Virus record (IMG/VR): IMGVR_UViG_3300034095_000853
Span: 1-20,985 of that record
Length of the DNA: 20,985 nt
Strand: one strand, 5' to 3'
Source: a virus
A program made the translations under genes and the position numbers. Shown here piece after piece: positions 6,711-20,760 of this stretch; within the stretch, counting starts at the first letter, position 1; each line of letters begins with the position of its first letter. The notes below the pieces were generated by a model. That model did not search any database, was not told where the DNA came from, and saw only the letters and a list, made by a program, of their open reading frames with translations.

Positions 6711-7183
6711 GCGAGGACGTCTATTTTTTTAGATACTCGGTTGCGTAAATTGGCGAGCATATCCCTCTCGGTCATTCCCTTCGCCCAATGCGGACGTAGC
6801 TGATAGTGGGGTTCGTCAACAAATTTCCAGTCGCCACCCCATTCCATGCCTAGCGATTTGCCGAGCGTGCCTAGCTCGTGATACAGCGGATGCTCTCCGT
6901 AGTATTCTTTCCCTTTGAATATGCCTACGTCGAACGCAATTCCAAAGTTATGATTTGAAAATCCCGCTTTTGCACGAGTCACAATCTTTGTGTTAGGAAT
7001 CGTTCGGCCTTTTGCATAAAGCGCATCTTGCTCCATGTAAGATCGAGTCGCGGAGATTATCTTTACGTCACAACCAACTTTTGCAGCTATGACCTTTGCT
7101 ACTCCGAGGAAGGCACGTGCGGCCTTTTGAGCTACGGGGTGAAGCGTTGCGATCTGAATCTCGCTGCGGTCGTCAAAGGTCAT
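6707..7183 (-). CDS. Endolysin, M15 family L-alanyl-D-glutamate/D-Ala peptidase
   Basis: The 158-aa enzyme has the M15 zinc motifs SNHNFGIAFD (76-85; His78 and Asp85) and EPHYQL (124-129; His126). Arg47 in SATRSYMEQDALYAKGRT is the substrate-side segment of VanY/T5-type peptidases. It should cut peptidoglycan stem peptides at lysis. There is no signal peptide, so it needs a holin. ATG 7183 overlaps the lipoprotein stop as ATGA. Length matches small T5-like endolysins. Upstream lie a lipoprotein and two small membrane proteins, completing a lysis cassette. Confidence 0.9.
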   Translation of the reverse strand: MTFDDRSEIQIATLHPVAQKAARAFLGVAKVIAAKVGCDVKIISATRSYMEQDALYAKGRTIPNTKIVTRAKAGFSNHNFGIAFDVGIFKGKEYYGEHPLYHELGTLGKSLGMEWGGDWKFVDEPHYQLRPHWAKGMTERDMLANLRNRVSKKIDVLA

Positions 7184-7347
7184 TTTTTGAGCGATGGTAT
7201 TTCTGGGAGTTCGTAGCAAAAAGTGCCGTAATCGGTTTTCAAACATACCGACGGATTTTTAAATCCAGCGCATGAAGTCAGGAACGCCATTCCCAAGAAC
7301 GCAAATGAAAGAACAATCATCCAAAGCGCGATGGTTCTTGCGCTCAT
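7180..7347 (-). CDS. Small lipoprotein, outer-membrane spanin (Rz1)-like candidate
   Basis: The 55-aa product has a signal-type hydrophobic segment (6-22) ending in the lipobox LTSC (23-26), so the mature lipoprotein is about 30 residues starting at Cys26. The mature part includes KTDYGTFCYELPEIPSLKK and two more Cys. A short Pro-containing lipoprotein in a lysis cassette points to an o-spanin or unimolecular-spanin part, which would imply a host with an outer membrane. No i-spanin gene is obvious, though one of the adjacent membrane proteins could partner it. Both ends overlap neighbours as ATGA. Confidence 0.6.
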   Translation of the reverse strand: MSARTIALWMIVLSFAFLGMAFLTSCAGFKNPSVCLKTDYGTFCYELPEIPSLKK

Positions 7348-7508
7348 TTTTCTTTGCGGAAGATTTCTATCAAGCCGATTATCGCCGCAAGTGCCGAACC
7401 AATAGCGTCCCACCTAGACGGGTCTAGGCTTATGCCCACCAAGCTGCCAATTATCGCGACCCCGCGAATAGTGGACGGTTCTTTCAATTTTGCGAATAGT
7501 GTCTTCAT
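7344..7508 (-). CDS. Holin-like small membrane protein, 54 aa
   Basis: The product begins MKTLFAKLKEPSTIRGVAII. Two weakly hydrophobic stretches (about 17-27 and 35-48, SALAAIIGLIEIF) are linked by a short DPSRWD turn, and the C-terminus is basic (RKEK). This matches short phage holin-like proteins carrying a STIRG motif near the N-terminus. It sits between another membrane protein and the lipoprotein with ATGA overlaps at both ends. It probably takes part in pore formation or pinhole lysis. Confidence 0.6.
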   Translation of the reverse strand: MKTLFAKLKEPSTIRGVAIIGSLVGISLDPSRWDAIGSALAAIIGLIEIFRKEK

Positions 7509-7672
7509 GGTTTTTTTGCTTTCAACATTTTATACAGCGATACCGCGCCAATGCAAATTCCAAGGACGAGAGACGTCAGTCGAAGCCACGCCTCGGCCTC
7601 GCTGAACGAGATTAAAACAGCCGTTGCGGGTGCGGACGTCCCGACGAACGTATGAAAAGCATGGTTGTCCAT
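7505..7672 (-). CDS. Holin-like small membrane protein, 55 aa
   Basis: ATG 7672 overlaps the TAA of the fibre-type gene as TAATG. The product begins MDNHAFHTFVGTSAPATAVL and has a transmembrane helix LTSLVLGICIGAVSLYKML (32-50) followed by KAKKP. A first hydrophobic part (14-21) is weaker. Size, charge and place at the head of the lysis cassette suggest a holin or antiholin paired with the 54-aa protein. The extra 15 residues upstream in this frame lie inside the fibre gene and are rejected. Confidence 0.55.
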   Translation of the reverse strand: MDNHAFHTFVGTSAPATAVLISFSEAEAWLRLTSLVLGICIGAVSLYKMLKAKKP

Positions 7673-8976
7673 TAGCTCAGTCCGCCTTGGGTGATGAGTT
7701 CTTCGGTAAGTGTGCATGGCTGGAGAATTATCGTGCTCCGCTCGCCTGCGGTCGTTAGTTCGATCTCGATCTCGGTCGTTACCGATGTGGCGTTGAGAAG
7801 CAGATCGCGAACGCCGAACGTGTTGAAATCAACTGCTGCGGTCTTGCCCGGTGCTGCGCTCAAGCCGCTTTGAACTTGGAGCGTAGAAAGGTCGGTGAAT
7901 CCTTTTGCGCCACCAAATGTGAGGTCGAAATATTTGCCTTGAATGCCGCTGACCGTCACGTTGTTCGCGCCAATAGAATTAAGTGACTGCAATGCAAGTT
8001 CAAATTCGCCCTCGCTTATTGAGGCAGGTAGCGGCCCACTTTGCGCCAAGAGCGTTGATGCAATGCTTCCCGCTGTTACAGTTGCCGAGCCGCTCGTTAT
8101 GCCCGTGGTGATCGTTGACGAACCAAGAATAAATTGCGTCTGGCTTGGGATTGCAGTTACGAAATAAACTTCGCCTTGCGTGTATCCGGTGAGTGCTGTG
8201 AATCCCGTTAATGTAACGACCTGCTGCAACGCAAGGCCGTGATTGGTGGGGGTTATGAAAACGCCATTCGTTACCGTGCTGGCGATGTCCAAGTTGTAGG
8301 TCGGCACAGTGACAACAAAACTTCCTTGGTATGGAGGTCGAGAAAATGAGACACGTTGCACTTCATTTTGAAGCGTCGATCCGGTAAGAGTGGTGGCAAC
8401 GCTGACCGTCAATGCCGTTCCAAGATCAGTCCACGTTGGCTCGTATACTGCGGGAGCGAGACGAAGCTGAAGCTCTTGAATCTCTGCGTTGGTCGCGTCT
8501 CCGACAAGTCGCTCGTCGATGAGCGCGGTCGTGGTTGGGATGAGTCGAGCGAAGTTGCCCGTGATCGCGCTCTGAGTGCCTGCGCTGTTAAACGAGACAA
8601 CGAAGTTCGTTGCCATTGTGCCGTCAACGGATACATTGCCTGCGGCGGTAATTGTTGAGAGTGAGTTGAGCGCGGACGAGATCGCGCCTGCGGTCGCGCT
8701 AAAACCGATTGCTCCGCTGGTCTGGCCTCCGAATGAAAGAGTGAACGTGCCACTGGCTGGCGTTCCTGTTCGGCTTCCTACACCGAATTTTACGCTCGTT
8801 CCGGTATAGTCGATCACGTTAAACGGCGCGGAGACATTGCCTGTTGCCTCCAGAAAGTACAAATTGATCGTGCCGTTGTCGCCCTTCACGAATCGTTGCG
8901 TTGTAGCCGGTGCAAGGCTCGTCAAGCTCGTCGCCAGCCTGCGGTTGGTGGTGTCAATAAATAGATCGCGTGCCAT
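7672..8976 (-). CDS. Fibre/baseplate-type structural protein, 434 aa, with repeated domain
   Basis: The N-terminus (MARDLFIDTTNRRLATSLTS then RFVKGDNGTINLYFLEATG) resembles the BppU-like upper baseplate or fibre-anchor pattern. Two diverged copies of a beta module follow: about 76-137 (SGTFTLSFGGQTSGAIGFSA, AISSALNSLSTI, GNVSVDG) and about 318-375 (EGEFELALQSLNSIGANNVT, GKYFDLTFGG). The protein is Ser/Thr/Gly rich with almost no Cys. It is a virion surface protein at the tail tip, the last structural gene before lysis. Receptor binding is inferred. The start overlaps nothing; TAA ATG join it to the preceding gene. Confidence 0.65.
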   Translation of the reverse strand: MARDLFIDTTNRRLATSLTSLAPATTQRFVKGDNGTINLYFLEATGNVSAPFNVIDYTGTSVKFGVGSRTGTPASGTFTLSFGGQTSGAIGFSATAGAISSALNSLSTITAAGNVSVDGTMATNFVVSFNSAGTQSAITGNFARLIPTTTALIDERLVGDATNAEIQELQLRLAPAVYEPTWTDLGTALTVSVATTLTGSTLQNEVQRVSFSRPPYQGSFVVTVPTYNLDIASTVTNGVFITPTNHGLALQQVVTLTGFTALTGYTQGEVYFVTAIPSQTQFILGSSTITTGITSGSATVTAGSIASTLLAQSGPLPASISEGEFELALQSLNSIGANNVTVSGIQGKYFDLTFGGAKGFTDLSTLQVQSGLSAAPGKTAAVDFNTFGVRDLLLNATSVTTEIEIELTTAGERSTIILQPCTLTEELITQGGLS

Positions 8977-9762
8977 TTATTCGGGTGTTTTGTCAACAGC
9001 TTCCCACTTGCCTATTGGGCAACGCTCGGTTGCCATGCGTAGTTTGGCCCACGTCGAGCATCCGCATTTGCGACAACGGCCCGTGGAGTTGAGTGCGGTG
9101 GCGTCCCATTCGGGACAGGCTTTGCACGTTGCTTGACGGCTGGCGAGTGCTTCGGGTGGGGTGGGAGTAAAATTTGAAGTGGCAAATTTGCGGACAGCAA
9201 ACCCCACACTTTTCATTTGATCCCAAAGTGTGGGATTAGATTCCGTTTGAGGTTTTGCTAATGTTTGCGGCGAATTGATGCTGTTGTATAAATCAAAGTC
9301 ATCTTTGTAGATTTCGCGGAGTTTGTCGGAATACGGAAAATCAATTTCTTTATCGTAAATCTTTGGTGGTTCTCCGAGGGCTAGCGTTTTCCAAAAATGC
9401 TCGATGTGATCTGATGCTTTCCAAAGGTAGATCGGTTGCCCACCCCATTTTAAAAATCTTGATTGCGGGAAAAAATGAAATGAAGGAAACTTTCCTTCAG
9501 CCACTAGTTTCACCGCTTCCTCTGGCTCAATGCCGTCTTCGTGACAGGCAGCAATAAATCTCTTAATCGGGTCGCCCAATAATAACGCCACGGGGTTGCT
9601 TGGTGTATTTTTGTATCCTTGAATTACAAAATGAGGACGAAGAGGCGGTGTGCTTTGATTTTTTTTTATCCAAATTGCATTAACTATTTCCGTGGAAAAA
9701 ACCTTCCAGTTGTAAGCGATGTCGAATCCGCCACTTTCACAATATGAATATCTAAAAATCAT
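8977..9762 (-). CDS. Sulfotransferase-like protein fused to a C-terminal zinc ribbon
   Basis: The 261-aa product has a central region resembling sulfotransferase-family proteins: VALLLGDPIKRFIAACHEDG (near 58-77, like the RDPxxRF PAPS-contact helix, with Gly for Arg), HFFPQSRFL, QPIYLWKASDHIEHFWKTL, and the late KLREIYKDDFDLYNSI. No clear 5'-phosphosulfate loop is seen, so activity is uncertain. Residues 213-252 form a zinc ribbon: C213-x2-C216, C230-x2-C233-x-C235 and C248 in CPIGKW. It sits among tail-tip genes with an ATGA overlap upstream. It may modify a virion or host glycan, or be a structural derivative of the fold. Confidence 0.5.
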   Translation of the reverse strand: MIFRYSYCESGGFDIAYNWKVFSTEIVNAIWIKKNQSTPPLRPHFVIQGYKNTPSNPVALLLGDPIKRFIAACHEDGIEPEEAVKLVAEGKFPSFHFFPQSRFLKWGGQPIYLWKASDHIEHFWKTLALGEPPKIYDKEIDFPYSDKLREIYKDDFDLYNSINSPQTLAKPQTESNPTLWDQMKSVGFAVRKFATSNFTPTPPEALASRQATCKACPEWDATALNSTGRCRKCGCSTWAKLRMATERCPIGKWEAVDKTPE

Positions 9763-10364
9763 GTAATGTTAATGTTTAAAAATGCGGTTGCCGTGTTGTC
9801 CAGATTCCAGATTCCAAAAGTTAGACTCCCCGCAGAAGTTGTTAGCGTTGTGGTTCCAACATTGTATATGAATCCACCTCCACCATTATTATCAAGGTTC
9901 CAGCTTGTAAAAAAGCCGACCGTATAACAAAACCCCGCGTAAATATCACTAAAGCATGATCCGCTTAAAATACCAAACGACCCACCCGCCCCATACCCAA
10001 ACCTATATTCAGAGCCAACTTTTGCAATTTGCCAAGCAAATCCCATATATGAATTATACTCTTGTGCATCAGTAGTGCATGTAACTCCGCCATATGCCGT
10101 AACGCTCCCACCGCATGAACTTAAACTTGATCCCGATGTTGCGCTTGAAAATGAGCAACCTGTATATTCGCTTCCTCCACCAGATGCGCTTACGTTTCCT
10201 CCCGCTTGTAATGCGTTAAACATTGCTTCGGATATTACAATATAATATTCCGTGATTTCTGGGCATGGCGGAAAAGGCGACTCACAGCACGCGCAATTCA
10301 CAGCGCGAAGGCCGCCGTCGGTTTTTGTCTTGATGGCTCCGGCTGGTGTGCGACCTAAGATCAT
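9759..10364 (-). CDS. Gly/Ser-rich, nine-Cys virion-associated protein, 201 aa
   Basis: ATG 10364 overlaps the preceding TGA as ATGA, rejecting a longer in-frame start at 10523. The product opens MILGRTPAGAIKTKTDGGLR, then a cysteine cluster (VNCACCESPFPPCP), and continues as a Gly/Ser/Thr-rich beta protein with five more Cys and several GGG runs. It ends in a hydrophobic beta stretch (TTSAGSLTFGIWNLDN). There is no signal peptide. Position among tail-tip genes suggests an adhesin-like tail protein. The paired Cys could bind metal or form disulfides outside the cell. I recognise no named family. Confidence 0.55.
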   Translation of the reverse strand: MILGRTPAGAIKTKTDGGLRAVNCACCESPFPPCPEITEYYIVISEAMFNALQAGGNVSASGGGSEYTGCSFSSATSGSSLSSCGGSVTAYGGVTCTTDAQEYNSYMGFAWQIAKVGSEYRFGYGAGGSFGILSGSCFSDIYAGFCYTVGFFTSWNLDNNGGGGFIYNVGTTTLTTSAGSLTFGIWNLDNTATAFLNINIT

Positions 10365-10615
10365 GGGCACTCCTCCGTGTCGATCCATTGCAGCGAGCCC
10401 TCTACCGAGCCCAGAACAAATATCCCAGTGCTTGGTATCGGAGGCAGGTTTAATTTCTTCGCGGGGAATCCTGCCAAAGTTGTGTCCTGCAAATACGAAT
10501 CGTCGGCAACCAATTTTGCCCAAGCATAGTTTTGCATTAACGCAGCCGCCGAAATCGGTTGCGCCGATTTGCCGGATGCGATCTGGTCGCGGAAGTCAAT
10601 AGGAAAGTCGTTCAT
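10361..10615 (-). CDS. Hypothetical tail-region protein, 84 aa
   Basis: The product begins MNDFPIDFRDQIASGKSAQP and contains SAAALMQNYAWAKLVADDS and a Pro/Leu stretch (KKLNLPPIPSTGIFVLG). Its stop overlaps the next start as ATGA. It looks like a small globular structural or accessory protein. No family is recognised. Confidence 0.55.
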   Translation of the reverse strand: MNDFPIDFRDQIASGKSAQPISAAALMQNYAWAKLVADDSYLQDTTLAGFPAKKLNLPPIPSTGIFVLGSVEGSLQWIDTEECP

Positions 10616-16212: not shown

Positions 16213-16659
16213 TCAACTTGCGAAAAGCGCGGCGTGAACGGTGATCGTTACCGACCGCTCGAAATGCCGTTCATTTGAAGATAGTGAAACTGGCCCGTCC
16301 CGAAGGATGCCGAAAACAAAAGCGTATTGCGGACGCACTGCGTTGAGTTTGGTCTTGAGTCCGGTGATGTCATGCGAAATACAAAGCACCTGAGACCACA
16401 GATTCTCCATTGCCATTTGATCCATGTCGTCGGCCTGCACGATCAAAGCGATATCAACTGAGAACTGGAAAATGGCGGAGTCGATAATGCTCTCGCGCTG
16501 CCGCGTGCATTTAACGAAGCACGCTGGCAACGTCATCGTGCCGAAGTTCTCCGCTGCCGTTACAACAAGGGCGCTTTGCATCTCTTGCTGAAGCGCAAGG
16601 ACGAAGGTATCTGTCAGTGCCTTTTCAAGCGTCAGAGTGTATGTCGAGTCCGTTATCAT
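16213..16659 (-). CDS. Putative tail terminator / tail completion protein, 148 aa
   Basis: The product begins MITDSTYTLTLEKALTDTFV and has a helix-strand pattern (CVKCTRQRESIIDSAIFQFS, VDIALIVQADDMDQMAMENL, ERSVTITVHAALFAS) like gpU or HK97 tail completion proteins. It lies directly before the tail tube, where such proteins usually are. ATG 16659 is chosen over a TTG at 16689 since both overlap the previous gene but ATG needs less overlap (35 nt). Function is inferred from position and fold pattern. Confidence 0.5.
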   Translation of the reverse strand: MITDSTYTLTLEKALTDTFVLALQQEMQSALVVTAAENFGTMTLPACFVKCTRQRESIIDSAIFQFSVDIALIVQADDMDQMAMENLWSQVLCISHDITGLKTKLNAVRPQYAFVFGILRDGPVSLSSNERHFERSVTITVHAALFAS

Positions 16660-16861
16660 TCTCTTGGGCGGTAACGTCAACAAGCCCAAGTCGCGCTATC
16701 TCTGCATCGCATTCCGCTTTTGTTCCTACAAATAACGTGCTCTGCGTTGATATTGCCTTTTCTGTCTCATCAAAAAAGATGATCGTGCTCCCATCATAAA
16801 CGAGTTTCCAAGAGGTTGACTCGTCAAAGGCCCATCCCTGTTCGTTAGGTGAAATTATCAT
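16625..16861 (-). CDS. Small fibre-companion protein, 78 aa
   Basis: The product begins MIISPNEQGWAFDESTSWKL and continues YDGSTIIFFDETEKAISTQS, then a helix (AECDAEIARLGLVDVT). It overlaps the PATR-repeat gene as ATGA. Short proteins of this look often follow phage fibre genes and may be assembly factors or caps, but the role here is unproven. Confidence 0.55.
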   Translation of the reverse strand: MIISPNEQGWAFDESTSWKLVYDGSTIIFFDETEKAISTQSTLFVGTKAECDAEIARLGLVDVTAQENDNGLDIHSDA

Positions 16862-17712
16862 GCGATAGTTAGCGTAGAGTTTGCCGAGTTGTATGTCCCT
16901 GTTCGCCCTGGAGCACCGACCAACGTGACGGATGCGTAGGTGCTGACGGTTGAGCCAGCGAAAAATCGGAATGTCATGCCTGCCGTTGGCGCAACGTTAA
17001 ATGAGACCGAAAGGGCGAGTCCTTGAATCGGAAAGGATGCCGTTGCCGTTGATGCTCCATTTGTTTTTGTTGCGCGAAGTATTCCAGCCGTGATCGTTGT
17101 CGATCCCGTGTAAGTTAATGCTCCAGACAGAACAACAGTTCCATTGCCCGTTTTGTTTACATTGCCAACGCCAGAAATGTTACCGGAAATTGTGTAAGTT
17201 GGCGCACCAGTTGTTCGAAATTGCAGTGTTGAGCTATTTATCGCAAAGTTATTTGGAATAGTCACAGAGCTGCTGGTAATGATTTGGCACGGGCCGGAAC
17301 AGGTCACATTCCCCGTCCCAAAAACATTCCCCGATGAAAAAGTGATTGTTCCCGCAGCCCCAGCCGAAGTGTAGTTTGTTCCGCCAGAATAAGTGTTATT
17401 TCCACCAAGCGTGACCGCCAATAATCCGCTTTTTGAAAGAGTCCCCGCTCCGCTAATGACGCCGTTGAGTGTTGATGCGCCCGTTATTGAAAGCGTTCCC
17501 GCATTGATTTGCGTTGCTCCTGTGTAGGTGCAAGTTCCGGAAAGCGTGAGTTGTGCCGCGCCATTTTTTACAAGTCCGATAGTTCCAGAAATCGCGCTTG
17601 AAACGGTCAATGCGGCATATTGCATGAATTGCAAAAATGTTGAAGAGACGCTGATGATGCCTGTTACGGTTGATCCTTGCACTCTTGCTGCGGTGGAATC
17701 GGTTAATATCAT
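16858..17712 (-). CDS. Virion-region protein with autotransporter-type beta-strand repeats (PATR), 284 aa
   Basis: ATG 17712 overlaps the fibre gene TGA as ATGA; an upstream start at 17919 gives a His/Arg-rich shadow. Three PATR-type copies are seen: about 43-76 (LVKNGAAQLTLSGTCTYTGA), 86-118 (GAGTLSKSGLLAVTLGGNNT) and 176-213 (GNVNKTGNGTVVLSGALTYT). The repeat (GxGTLxKxGxGxLxLSGxNTYTG) normally builds the beta-helix passenger of bacterial autotransporters. The N-terminus (MILTDSTAARVQG) has no signal peptide and there is no autotransporter barrel, so it is probably packaged on the virion as a fibre or decoration. Gain from a host adhesin is inferred. Confidence 0.7.
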   Translation of the reverse strand: MILTDSTAARVQGSTVTGIISVSSTFLQFMQYAALTVSSAISGTIGLVKNGAAQLTLSGTCTYTGATQINAGTLSITGASTLNGVISGAGTLSKSGLLAVTLGGNNTYSGGTNYTSAGAAGTITFSSGNVFGTGNVTCSGPCQIITSSSVTIPNNFAINSSTLQFRTTGAPTYTISGNISGVGNVNKTGNGTVVLSGALTYTGSTTITAGILRATKTNGASTATASFPIQGLALSVSFNVAPTAGMTFRFFAGSTVSTYASVTLVGAPGRTGTYNSANSTLTIA

Positions 17713-19196
17713 CCTACGATAATGTAGAGCGTGTTTGCGGCTGGCGAAGTGATCGCAGAATATCCAGCGGACGTGATCTGCATCATGTTGCTGAGTTGCG
17801 TTGCGCCGGTGATGCCGCTGGTTACCGATGCGACTCTCGTAGCCAAGTCCGCTGATAGTCCGCTGATCGTTCCGATGGTCAAAGTTGAATTTACCCAAAG
17901 CGTGGTGGCCGAATTCCAAAGGATCGTTTGGTTGTTTGTTGGCGAAGTGATCAACACGTCGTGCAATTCCTCAAGCTCAAATCCATTTTGCGGTCGAATA
18001 TATAGCTGACCGTTGCCAGCATTCGCACGCTCTACAACGCCGATAAAAACAATATGATCGGGCTGGGTTGGCTTTACTCGCGTAAATGCTCCAGGTGTCG
18101 TATCGAGATAAATTGAGTCGCCGGACACATAGGGAGAGCCAAGTGAAAGCCCGTCTAGAACGCCCTGCGTAATTATGAATCCGTTTTGGTTTGCGCCAAT
18201 AGATTCAGCCACAAGGCCGATAGTTTTGGACGAGCTTGAATCTGCTACGTTTGATGCCCGCTTGACGCTTGCGCGGTTGCCTGTTGCTCCGAATAAATAA
18301 ACAACCTCGCCCTTGTTTAGCGTTGTCGCCTCGGCATTGCGAACGTAGGCCACAAGCATTGACCCCATTTGCAATTGCACGTTGCCGCCTGCAAGCCCGA
18401 CTTGTGGCGCGCCTTCGATTGAGTTCCAGAACATCTTGCCGATGGCATTAGTTTCGGTTGCAGCCGTGTTGAAATTGAGCGAGTCCGCAGGAACGTCCGC
18501 AAGCATCGAGATCGTGCGCGAAGCGGAAAGATCGCCGCCGCCTGTCAGTCCTGTTCCTGCCGTGATCGCCGTGATCTTGAGAGCCTTCGTGTCAAGCGCA
18601 CCTTGCAAATCTGTCTGATTCGATAGCGTTCCAGTTATCGCTCCCCAAGATACAACTGAAAGCGGAGTGACTGCGCTCCACTCCGAACCAGTCCAACCCA
18701 AAGATTGACCAGTGATCGGAGCGGCTGTCGCGACTGAGAACCCTTGCAACTTTACAACACTAGGCGCTGGGTATGTTCCGCCAAGATCGCCCGACGCTGC
18801 GCCTGTAGGAGTGCGCGAATCGCTTAAACGTGAATCGGTCGTGATGACTGCCGTTCCAGAAATCGCGCTTGGTGAAATGCCGGACGATGGAGCTTTTGCA
18901 TCGAGAACCGTTTGCAGATCGGTCTGGTTCGAGAGCGTTCCCGCGATGCCGCCCCAGATCGCTGATCCACCGCCACCACCGCCTGTGATCCATTCCGTGT
19001 CATAGTCAGCATTTGTTTTCTTCGCGAGCACTTGCCCTGTGAAGCCGCCTGTAACAACCCCAACGCCAACTGGCCCAACTGGCCCCTGCGATCCGGTCGG
19101 CCCCGCTGCGCCTGCAATGATTTCGGTGCGAAGAATGGGTTGATTATCGACATTCGGAACCTCGCGGCCTTCGTCTTCTGGAAAGAAAATGCTCAT
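17709..19196 (-). CDS. Tail fibre-like protein with collagen repeat, 495 aa
   Basis: Near the N-terminus is a Gly-X-Y run (GPTGSQGPVGPVGVG, 32-46), then a Gly-rich hinge (72-77). Two copies of a short fibre repeat follow (WGGIAGTLSNQTDLQTVLDA at 81-100 and SWGAITGTLSNQTDLQGALD at 173-192), with DSRLSDSRTPTGAASGDLGG between. The C-terminal part holds ERANAGNGQLYIRPQNGFEL and ends ITSPAANTLYIIVG, phrases typical of phage fibre tips. It is a trimeric fibre candidate for host recognition. It overlaps both neighbours as ATGA. Confidence 0.75.
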   Translation of the reverse strand: MSIFFPEDEGREVPNVDNQPILRTEIIAGAAGPTGSQGPVGPVGVGVVTGGFTGQVLAKKTNADYDTEWITGGGGGGSAIWGGIAGTLSNQTDLQTVLDAKAPSSGISPSAISGTAVITTDSRLSDSRTPTGAASGDLGGTYPAPSVVKLQGFSVATAAPITGQSLGWTGSEWSAVTPLSVVSWGAITGTLSNQTDLQGALDTKALKITAITAGTGLTGGGDLSASRTISMLADVPADSLNFNTAATETNAIGKMFWNSIEGAPQVGLAGGNVQLQMGSMLVAYVRNAEATTLNKGEVVYLFGATGNRASVKRASNVADSSSSKTIGLVAESIGANQNGFIITQGVLDGLSLGSPYVSGDSIYLDTTPGAFTRVKPTQPDHIVFIGVVERANAGNGQLYIRPQNGFELEELHDVLITSPTNNQTILWNSATTLWVNSTLTIGTISGLSADLATRVASVTSGITGATQLSNMMQITSAGYSAITSPAANTLYIIVG

Positions 19197-19495
19197 TTGT
19201 TAATATCCTCAAGAGTGAAATCGACCGATACGGCGTCTTGGGAAAGCTCTGCGGACGTGACGCGAAAGCGTCTACCACCGATGACGAGAACGTCACCGAG
19301 AGAAATGGTCTGCACGAATGCGTCGTAGACCGCCGTTATGGTCATTGATGCGGAGTCCATGAAGCCGCCGTCCGCTAGGCTGTTGTCGCGCCGGTATGTT
19401 GTCCGGTTCGCGAGAAAATTACGCTCGCCGAATGTGACCGCAAGCGGCAGATCGTCCAGCATAGCAGCTAGATCGTTTGTAAATATGTCGAGCAT
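19193..19495 (-). CDS. Putative head-tail connector/adaptor protein, 100 aa
   Basis: The product starts MLDIFTNDLAAMLDDLPLAV if ATG 19495 is used; a GTG at 19501 adds two residues. It then reads TFGERNFLANRTTYRRDN, followed by SLGDVLVIGGRRFRVTSAEL and a C-terminal VSVDFTLEDINK, the small beta-barrel pattern of FII- or HK97-type head-tail adaptors. It lies upstream of the tail genes. Sequence evidence is pattern-level only. Confidence 0.5.
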   Translation of the reverse strand: MLDIFTNDLAAMLDDLPLAVTFGERNFLANRTTYRRDNSLADGGFMDSASMTITAVYDAFVQTISLGDVLVIGGRRFRVTSAELSQDAVSVDFTLEDINK

Positions 19496-19516
19496 TCCCA
19501 CAAAGTGGGTAATGCG

Positions 19517-20179
19517 TCAAAACTTGCGCTCGATACGTCGCTGGTTTGGATGCGTGAAATCGTGCTTCGGGCTGTCTGCGATATGCACCCAACTCTTTCG
19601 GAGTGCCGATGCAAGGATGCTTGTGCTTGTGTTGATCGTAACGACCTCTTGCGCGTCTCGGATATACGCGCACATATATTCTATGCTTTCAAACTCAGCC
19701 ATGCCGTGAGCGGCCTTCCCAGCGCAAAGCACGGGCCTCCCGTTTGCGACTTGATGCGCGGCTGCAATAACATCGCGAGGGTCAATCTTTTTATCTTGCG
19801 AGTATCCGGTCGGAAAACAAAGAACCCATGACCGAAGTTCAGGCGGCGTCACTATCGCGGGAGAGTTGAGAACGATCTGCCGGTCGATGTCCTTGCCTTC
19901 TGGGAAAAGTCCGTAAACGTAATCACTCCACCCTAGCGGACTCGCACAAAAGTCTTCGTGCAAGTCCGGCCAAATTTGCAAGTTGATGATGCGGTGAAAT
20001 CCGCTGTGGTCGTTCTGCGGATAGATTGGCCGGCAGTAATCGACCATCGCGAAAAGTCCGTGATATTCGGGTAGGCATTCAAACATCACATTATGTCCCT
20101 GATCCGCGAAATGCTTCGCTATCGGTAAGCATCGTGCGATGTCTCCTAGACGCAAGTGGTAAACAATTAGGATGTTCAA
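19517..20179 (-). CDS. GT9-like glycosyltransferase (ADP-heptosyltransferase-type fold), TTG start
   Basis: The 220-aa product begins MNILIVYHLRLGDIARCLPI, the first Rossmann strand and LGDI loop of GT9/GT-B enzymes, and ends with INTSTSILASALRKSWVHIA, like the acceptor/donor loop near the GT9 C-terminus. It is shorter than host heptosyltransferases (about 320 aa), so only a core may be present. TTG 20179 overlaps the previous TGA as TTGA and gives the best family N-terminus. Possible roles are modification of virion proteins, phage DNA or host surface glycans. Confidence 0.6.
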   Translation of the reverse strand: MNILIVYHLRLGDIARCLPIAKHFADQGHNVMFECLPEYHGLFAMVDYCRPIYPQNDHSGFHRIINLQIWPDLHEDFCASPLGWSDYVYGLFPEGKDIDRQIVLNSPAIVTPPELRSWVLCFPTGYSQDKKIDPRDVIAAAHQVANGRPVLCAGKAAHGMAEFESIEYMCAYIRDAQEVVTINTSTSILASALRKSWVHIADSPKHDFTHPNQRRIERKF

Positions 20180-20760
20180 AACGTGTAATATTGTTCTGCT
20201 GATTTTCCTGCAACCCAGCCGTGGAATCCGAAGGAACGATCCGGCCCCGCCGTATTTTCTTCAATGTAATGCTCCCACGAGAACGCAGCTGCTACGTCCA
20301 CCGGCGCGTATTTGATGCCGTTATCGCGAAAGCCTTGCTCCATCGTGCGGCAAAGGAAGACATCCCCTGCCTCGCCCTTCCAGAGTGCCTCGGCCTTTGC
20401 TGCCATTTGTAAGAATTTCTGGCTTTGGAGCGTGAATCCAGTATTGCCGACGCGATGCCCTACGTTCCAGAATGCAGGCCAAGGCGCGCCAATCATGTCA
20501 TATTCGAGCCATGAATCATCCCACAGATGCGGGTTGGAAATGAATCCGTCATGCGTGCAGATGAGCGCGTGCGAAGTGTCGAAATAATCCGCAAAGCGAC
20601 CGAGTTCCCAATGCATCGCCTGCTGATAGTTGCATTCTTCTGCGATATAAACGGCGTCTCCGAATCCACCTAGTCCGCAAAGGTGGTTGAACAATTTTTC
20701 GCTTTGTTCGTGCCTTGCCTTTACGCCTTCAAAAACGATCAATGTGACGTCCTTATTCAT
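20176..20760 (-). CDS. DUF5672-like putative glycosyltransferase
   Basis: The 194-aa protein has CTHDGFISNPHLW (68-80), YDMIGAPWPAFW, VGNTGFTLQSQKFL (about 104-117), GDVFLCRTMEQGFRDNGIKY and AFSWEHY, the ordered signature of DUF5672, a GT-A-like group. A DxD-like metal site is not clean. It overlaps the GT2-like gene as ATGA and the GT9-like gene as TTGA, forming one sugar-related block. It probably transfers or prepares a sugar; acceptor unknown. Confidence 0.7.
   Translation of the reverse strand: MNKDVTLIVFEGVKARHEQSEKLFNHLCGLGGFGDAVYIAEECNYQQAMHWELGRFADYFDTSHALICTHDGFISNPHLWDDSWLEYDMIGAPWPAFWNVGHRVGNTGFTLQSQKFLQMAAKAEALWKGEAGDVFLCRTMEQGFRDNGIKYAPVDVAAAFSWEHYIEENTAGPDRSFGFHGWVAGKSAEQYYTF

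Follow-up and report, generated by a model that had tools for sequence, protein, structure and literature searches.

A gene of autotransporter-type PATR repeats within a phage fibre cassette: a proposed fibre-tip adhesin

Introduction

PATR repeats usually belong to proteins that bacteria secrete, and their presence among the structural genes of a phage raises the question of what a virus does with them. The window analysed here, one IMG/VR contig of 20,985 nucleotides, carries such a gene directly after a fibre-like gene. A sequence-only reading had suggested a fibre or decoration derived from a host adhesin, which would mimic the host surface or bind its partners and might form an undescribed class of receptor-binding protein. 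We propose, with moderate confidence, that the gene encodes a separate adhesin, which binds the host surface from the tip of the fibre whose gene lies just upstream.

A PATR repeat protein between a fibre-like gene and a small gene

By curated profile scores, the 284-aa product is a PATR repeat protein: it matched PF12951 with E 5.1e-16 (58.8 bits, curated cut-off 27) and TIGR02601 with E 9.7e-18 (63.6 bits, curated cut-off 19.85), E-values that rule out a chance repeat match. The gene coordinates given beforehand proved correct; of the three PATR-like repeats counted at that stage, two exceeded the cut-off and one fell below it. The gene and its neighbours are as follows.

19193..19501, minus strand: probable head-closure or head-tail attachment gene, bordering the cassette on its upstream side
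17709..19196, minus strand: fibre-like gene preceding the PATR gene, 495 aa; its product has a short collagen-like stretch close to the N-terminus and ends in ..AGYSAITSPAANTLYIIVG
16858..17712, minus strand: PATR protein gene, 284 aa, proposed fibre-tip adhesin; start codon ATG at 17712 and stop codon at 16858; residues 1-45 form the N-terminal segment, 46-215 the repeat body and 216-284 the C-terminal segment
17485..17574, minus strand: PATR repeat 1 (43.4 bits, E 1.2e-12)
17374..17415, minus strand: partial PATR repeat, below cut-off (17.5 bits, E 1.5e-4)
17074..17157, minus strand: PATR repeat 3 (38.1 bits, E 5.3e-11)
16625..16861, minus strand: small third cassette gene, 78 aa; guessed to be an assembly helper or minor tip part
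16213..16689, minus strand: probable tail-terminator gene, named by gene order alone; downstream border of the cassette

The start of the PATR gene overlaps the end of the fibre gene (19196-17709) by ATGA at 17712-17709, as had been noticed before, and its own end overlaps the 78-aa gene (16861-16625) in the same way at 16861-16858. Translational coupling at these overlaps could allow fibre, tip and small helper to be produced together.

The protein ends 69 residues past its last repeat. Consistently with the previous description of a gene with neither signal peptide nor barrel, no Sec-like signal peptide was visible by eye at its start (MILTDSTAARVQGSTVTGIIS), and the Pfam search returned PATR as the sole family, with no C-terminal beta-barrel translocator. 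Lacking both elements, the protein is, judged from its sequence, not a classical type V autotransporter. Pfam and PHROGs gave no gp38 family and no glycine-rich receptor loops; without this homology and these loops, it does not belong to the gp38 family. An enzymatic tailspike (depolymerase) was rejected, as Pfam, PHROGs and NCBIfam placed no enzyme domain on the protein. Its sole PHROG match was a fibre protein (E 6.9e-6, via the repeats), and its only PDB sequence match was the Serratia Ssp passenger 8e7f (E 6.9e-5).

Among the neighbours, the fibre-like gene matched a PHROG tail protein (E 1.5e-12) and, weakly and below cut-off, PF24243. The head-closure assignment relies on gene order and on two weak matches, one to PF05354 (E 0.0024, below cut-off) and one to the Hc1 head-closure family phrog_82 (E 0.022). 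The tail-terminator gene had no family match in Pfam or PHROG; its relatives in phages without the cassette use a later start, near 16659. The 78-aa protein had no Pfam family over cut-off and no PHROG, and its confident small beta/alpha model found no significant match in a PDB fold search; its position would suit a tail fibre assembly chaperone (Tfa/gp38-type), a class to which neither family nor fold linked it.

An AlphaFold2 model of the PATR protein, built from a 17-sequence alignment, consisted wholly of beta structure, its short strands stacked in a solenoid-like manner (mean pLDDT 81.8, pTM 0.80, residues 1-28 unreliable). Such a model is compatible with the beta-helix expected from the repeats; in Foldseek against the PDB, the IcsA, Ssp and Ag43 passengers were among the top matches at non-significant values (best E 0.17, TM ~0.2). 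The top structural match in BFVD was UniProt A0A6J5M3L0 (prob 1.00, TM 0.45, E 0.048), an uncultured Caudovirales phage protein named 'Autotransporter-associated beta strand repeat'. The modelled fold is probably a beta-solenoid, and a classical right-handed beta-helix is its likely class.

The cassette occupies two kinds of genome position

An initial search for PATR relatives had given 24 loci; a profile search then found 106 viral stretches encoding them, of which the best 80, mostly full length, were kept. In nearly all of these best 80 of 106, a fibre-type gene, an ATGA, the PATR gene, a second ATGA and a gene of 69-83 aa followed one another, a shared gene order of the kind that the earlier reading had named as a check. 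INPHARED contained no relatives of the PATR protein or of the 78-aa protein. The fibre-type gene was highly variable in length and its C-terminus often read ..AGYNAI..NTLYIIVG; a minority of relatives had a different fibre end upstream of the PATR gene, in some cases separated from it by a short gap. The tail-tip family PF24243, weak in the window, exceeded the cut-off at the fibre end in two relatives (L020 and L180).

PATR protein length ranged from 281 to 987 aa, and the longer variants (372-987 aa) mostly retained both ends. Three proteins of 986-987 aa (L132:2872-5832, L153:2869-5832 and L160:2863-5826) occupied the genomic slot of the 284-aa window protein and had the usual ends; the first had at least six PATR repeats. 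In L180:3428-5817, the fibre end ..LTQAEYDALPTKDGNTIYFIKQ and the PATR start MPTFTKAYLGTTPLFKEQG were both atypical and the PATR C-terminus was usual, the facing ends of the two proteins being altered together. A strict pairing of fibre C-terminus with PATR N-terminus was nevertheless rejected, since several phages of the lysis type have the standard PATR N-terminus behind a fibre that ends in another way.

When genome contexts were classified, with border-gene names resting partly on gene order, 19 of 81 loci had the cassette between head-closure and tail-terminator genes, as in the window, 32 had it at most 4.5 kb upstream of lysis genes and six just downstream of them; the remainder were unplaceable, many on short contigs. 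The Verrucomicrobiota genome bin G149 includes a 38.9-kb contig (G149:C38; L230, L231) that is collinear with this phage and has no PATR cassette: its head-closure and tail-terminator genes touch, and several fibre-like genes precede the lysis genes. Because of this arrangement, the lysis-side location looks like the ordinary fibre place.

These positions bear on whether the fibre-PATR complex might instead decorate the collar or capsid as a neck or head fibre, giving auxiliary adhesion, a function proposed for the neck passage structures of lactococcal phages, while another protein serves as the main receptor binder. The slot between head-closure and tail-terminator genes would suit such a role, as would the existence of phages without the cassette, and PMC6669499 reports carbohydrate-binding modules in the neck structures of 936 phages. 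However, the cassette adjoins lysis genes elsewhere, where G149:C38 has its fibre-like genes, which makes the head/tail gene position weak evidence for head or neck decoration; moreover, the window has no other obvious fibre from the tail-tip to the lysis genes. We consider a neck or head fibre rather improbable, and favour the fibre-tip adhesin.

A glycine-rich fibre end can take the place of the PATR and small genes

Phages were fetched via the tail-terminator gene and the interval was read wherever a contig spanned it, some contigs being redundant. Fibre, PATR and small genes filled this interval in 23 contigs; in ten others, the terminator gene came directly after a longer fibre gene whose product has a glycine-rich end, with no PATR or small gene; one contig held another short fibre, and four were empty. 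The neighbours of the interval were 91-99% identical between cassette carriers and phages with glycine-rich fibres or an empty interval, and the tail-terminator gene itself was 95-99% identical among phages with differing cassettes. PF21722 exceeded its cut-off in two of three glycine-rich fibres tested and was just below it in the third. A PATR match was present in all eight carriers and nowhere in 12 records of the glycine-rich, other or empty kind, which may be incomplete. Since the interval holds either arrangement and PATR is missing from non-carriers, the PATR and small genes behave as a substitute for the glycine-rich fibre end.

In two of the empty phages (L171 and L177), the stretch preceding the lysis genes was likewise free of fibres. 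With no replacement fibre there, the cassette would not be essential to the lineage: either it can be done without, or these phages have a different adhesin, for which an ORF upstream of the L177 capsid gene is a candidate. A second variable spot was observed in that region, with a repetitive 518-aa ORF in L053:734-2290 and, in the L177 record (reverse complement of L235, ~6906-8611), a 211-aa ORF that is LamG-type lectin-like by eye, plus others; this spot could be a second adhesin site.

The repeat body varies and the protein ends follow the backbone

The PATR gene was mostly 67-73% identical between phages whose neighbouring genes were 86-99% identical. Among up to 13 phages of the window type, mean pairwise identity was 0.74 for PATR, 0.92 for the small gene, 0.95 for head closure and 0.97-0.99 for other tail genes, and pN/pS reached 0.31 for PATR, and 0.42 for its residues 113-185, against 0.04-0.16 for the neighbours. 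The higher pS of PATR (0.59 vs 0.25-0.46 for neighbours) suggests allele exchange at this gene. With pN/pS below 1 in the body, selection for change is not proven by these sequences.

In 49 dereplicated PATR proteins, the first 45 and the last 69 residues grouped according to genome context (ANOSIM R values of 0.67 and 0.66, p 0.0005), and residues 79-215 did not (R between -0.10 and -0.06). In the window protein, residues 113-150 were 84% identical to their counterparts in L008, which has another backbone, versus 37-53% for most phages of the same backbone. Because the ends group by context, the body does not, and this match crosses backbones, the alignments indicate that the repeat body is exchanged across lineages and that the ends stay with their backbone. 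Physical linkage to the neighbouring genes or assembly contacts could tie the ends in this way.

A length range of 281 to 987 aa between mostly constant ends, in repeats that recombine readily, is also what might be expected of a structural spacer or length-variable shaft, a solenoid in the fibre rod that makes no receptor contact and changes by near-neutral drift and repeat recombination. However, the PATR gene is swapped with a glycine-rich fibre end, not with another shaft, and its divergence is focused in the body, the flanking structural genes being nearly fixed; we therefore regard a spacer or shaft as quite unlikely.

Taken together, the cassette behaviour, the glycine-rich replacement, the rapid divergence of the PATR gene and the exchange of its repeat body point to a likely role in host recognition. 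For the proposed fibre-tip adhesin, we infer a place in the virion, attachment to the fibre and binding of a receptor, with a helper role for the small protein. The conserved PATR N-terminus, and perhaps the C-terminus, would anchor the protein in the virion; the autotransporter-type solenoid between them would display a variable surface; and recombination within the conserved repeats would swap that surface between phages, in a cassette found at two kinds of genome position. The core of the sequence-only reading, a PATR protein free of secretion parts in a structural operon, held up; its interpretation was borne out in part. The core guess gained a likely host-recognition role from the cassette behaviour and is well supported as a hypothesis, and the suggestion of host-surface mimicry is speculation.

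A likely Verrucomicrobiota host

The window exonuclease matched only two Akkermansia phages in INPHARED. With phyla inferred from the titles of centre genomes, it was found in 7 of 241 Verrucomicrobiota genomes (best 57%, in G149), and 246 Planctomycetota and 249 Pseudomonadota genomes gave no match. The G149 match sits on G149:C38, perhaps a contig of a phage that was binned together with the genome of its host. These matches make Verrucomicrobiota the likely host phylum.

PATR matches over cut-off occurred in 28 of 59 Verrucomicrobiota vs 11 of 60 Pseudomonadota genomes, and many Verrucomicrobiota are rich in putative PATR surface proteins. The phage PATR profile, run against 145 Verrucomicrobiota genomes, again scored best in G149 (E 1.8e-21). 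Two of the G149 PATR proteins examined had signal-peptide-like starts and one a PEP-CTERM-like end. Over the repeats, the best of them shared ~36% identity with the window protein; since this was the nearest host-type passenger examined, a recent capture of the gene from the host is not likely, and any acquisition would be old.

Could the gene be cargo, displayed by the infected cell to alter its surface (e.g. for superinfection blocking), and not a virion part? We judge this very improbable: the secreted kind of the repeats and the optional cassette would fit, but, unlike the bacterial proteins examined, the phage protein has no visible signal peptide, barrel or PEP-CTERM-like anchor, its ATGA overlaps embed it in a structural operon, and no prophage with a PATR cassette was found. 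A conversion gene or prophage cargo was likewise rejected on the missing secretion signals and on a scan of the genome collection, which gave ordinary bacterial passengers only. The 78-aa gene had no match in 388 Verrucomicrobiota genomes, in a search run without a positive control.

Discussion

The proposed fibre-tip adhesin resembles several known systems in part. With PATR/TIGR02601 passengers (Ssp, Ag43 and Verrucomicrobiota surface proteins) it shares a repeat profile over the cut-offs, but it is short and stand-alone, has conserved ends of its own, lies among phage structural genes, and shows no signal peptide, barrel or PEP-CTERM-like anchor. Like the gp38-type distal tail fibre adhesins of S16 and PP01, it is a separate variable gene directly after a fibre gene, with a proposed location at the fibre tip, and related phages have a glycine-rich fibre end in its stead; it differs in its autotransporter-type repeats, in having neither glycine-rich loops nor homology to gp38, and in the extra small gene that follows. 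Glycine-rich fibre ends (PF21722, Gly_rich_2; compare Pam3 gp24, PMC9608196) share the genomic interval of the cassette in near-identical phages, but are fused to the fibre, differ in sequence and have no third gene. FhaB-like beta-solenoid proteins of Ostreococcus viruses (PMC12906663) likewise have a fold of the bacterial secreted-adhesin type; they lie in a hypervariable region of the virus and have a proposed role in host interaction, but belong to algal viruses and to another protein family and are not described as a fibre cassette.

We found no published description of PATR repeats in phages in the literature searched; the candidate matches examined were trimeric (YadA) autotransporters or a mere reference title. 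Uncultured Caudovirales phage proteins of the A0A6J5M3L0 type, which also carry the PATR repeat name, assigned automatically, are already in UniProt.

A fuller version of the proposal, in which the fibre-tip adhesin is made of host repeats of ancient host origin, perhaps binds host PATR proteins, recombines its body between backbone-locked ends and forms an undescribed receptor-binding class, is possible, and we hold it doubtful. If the fibre-tip adhesin is correct, the autotransporter-type solenoid as a stand-alone tip gene would be a new building material for phage adhesins, one that almost identical phages can exchange for a glycine-rich fibre end, and recombination inside the repeats would be a natural experiment on the swapping of receptor recognition. 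To our knowledge, little is known about the receptors of Verrucomicrobiota phages; the cassette would offer a sequence handle on host range in uncultured phages of probable Verrucomicrobiota hosts.

Other variable or unusual genes were observed in these genomes. From tape measure to lysis genes, close relatives match the window in parts only at 8977-10523 (minus strand), a further spot of diversity close to the tail tip. In the stretch that separates the capsid gene from the head-closure gene, 20176-20760 (minus strand) encodes a DUF5672 protein (PF18922) resembling a sugar-transfer enzyme, and 19517-20179 (minus strand) has a weak PseG-like, sugar-transfer-like match; these genes (19517-20760) might modify virion proteins. 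In L053 (5006-6721), a family 2 glycosyltransferase (PF00535) immediately precedes two sugar-transfer-like genes.
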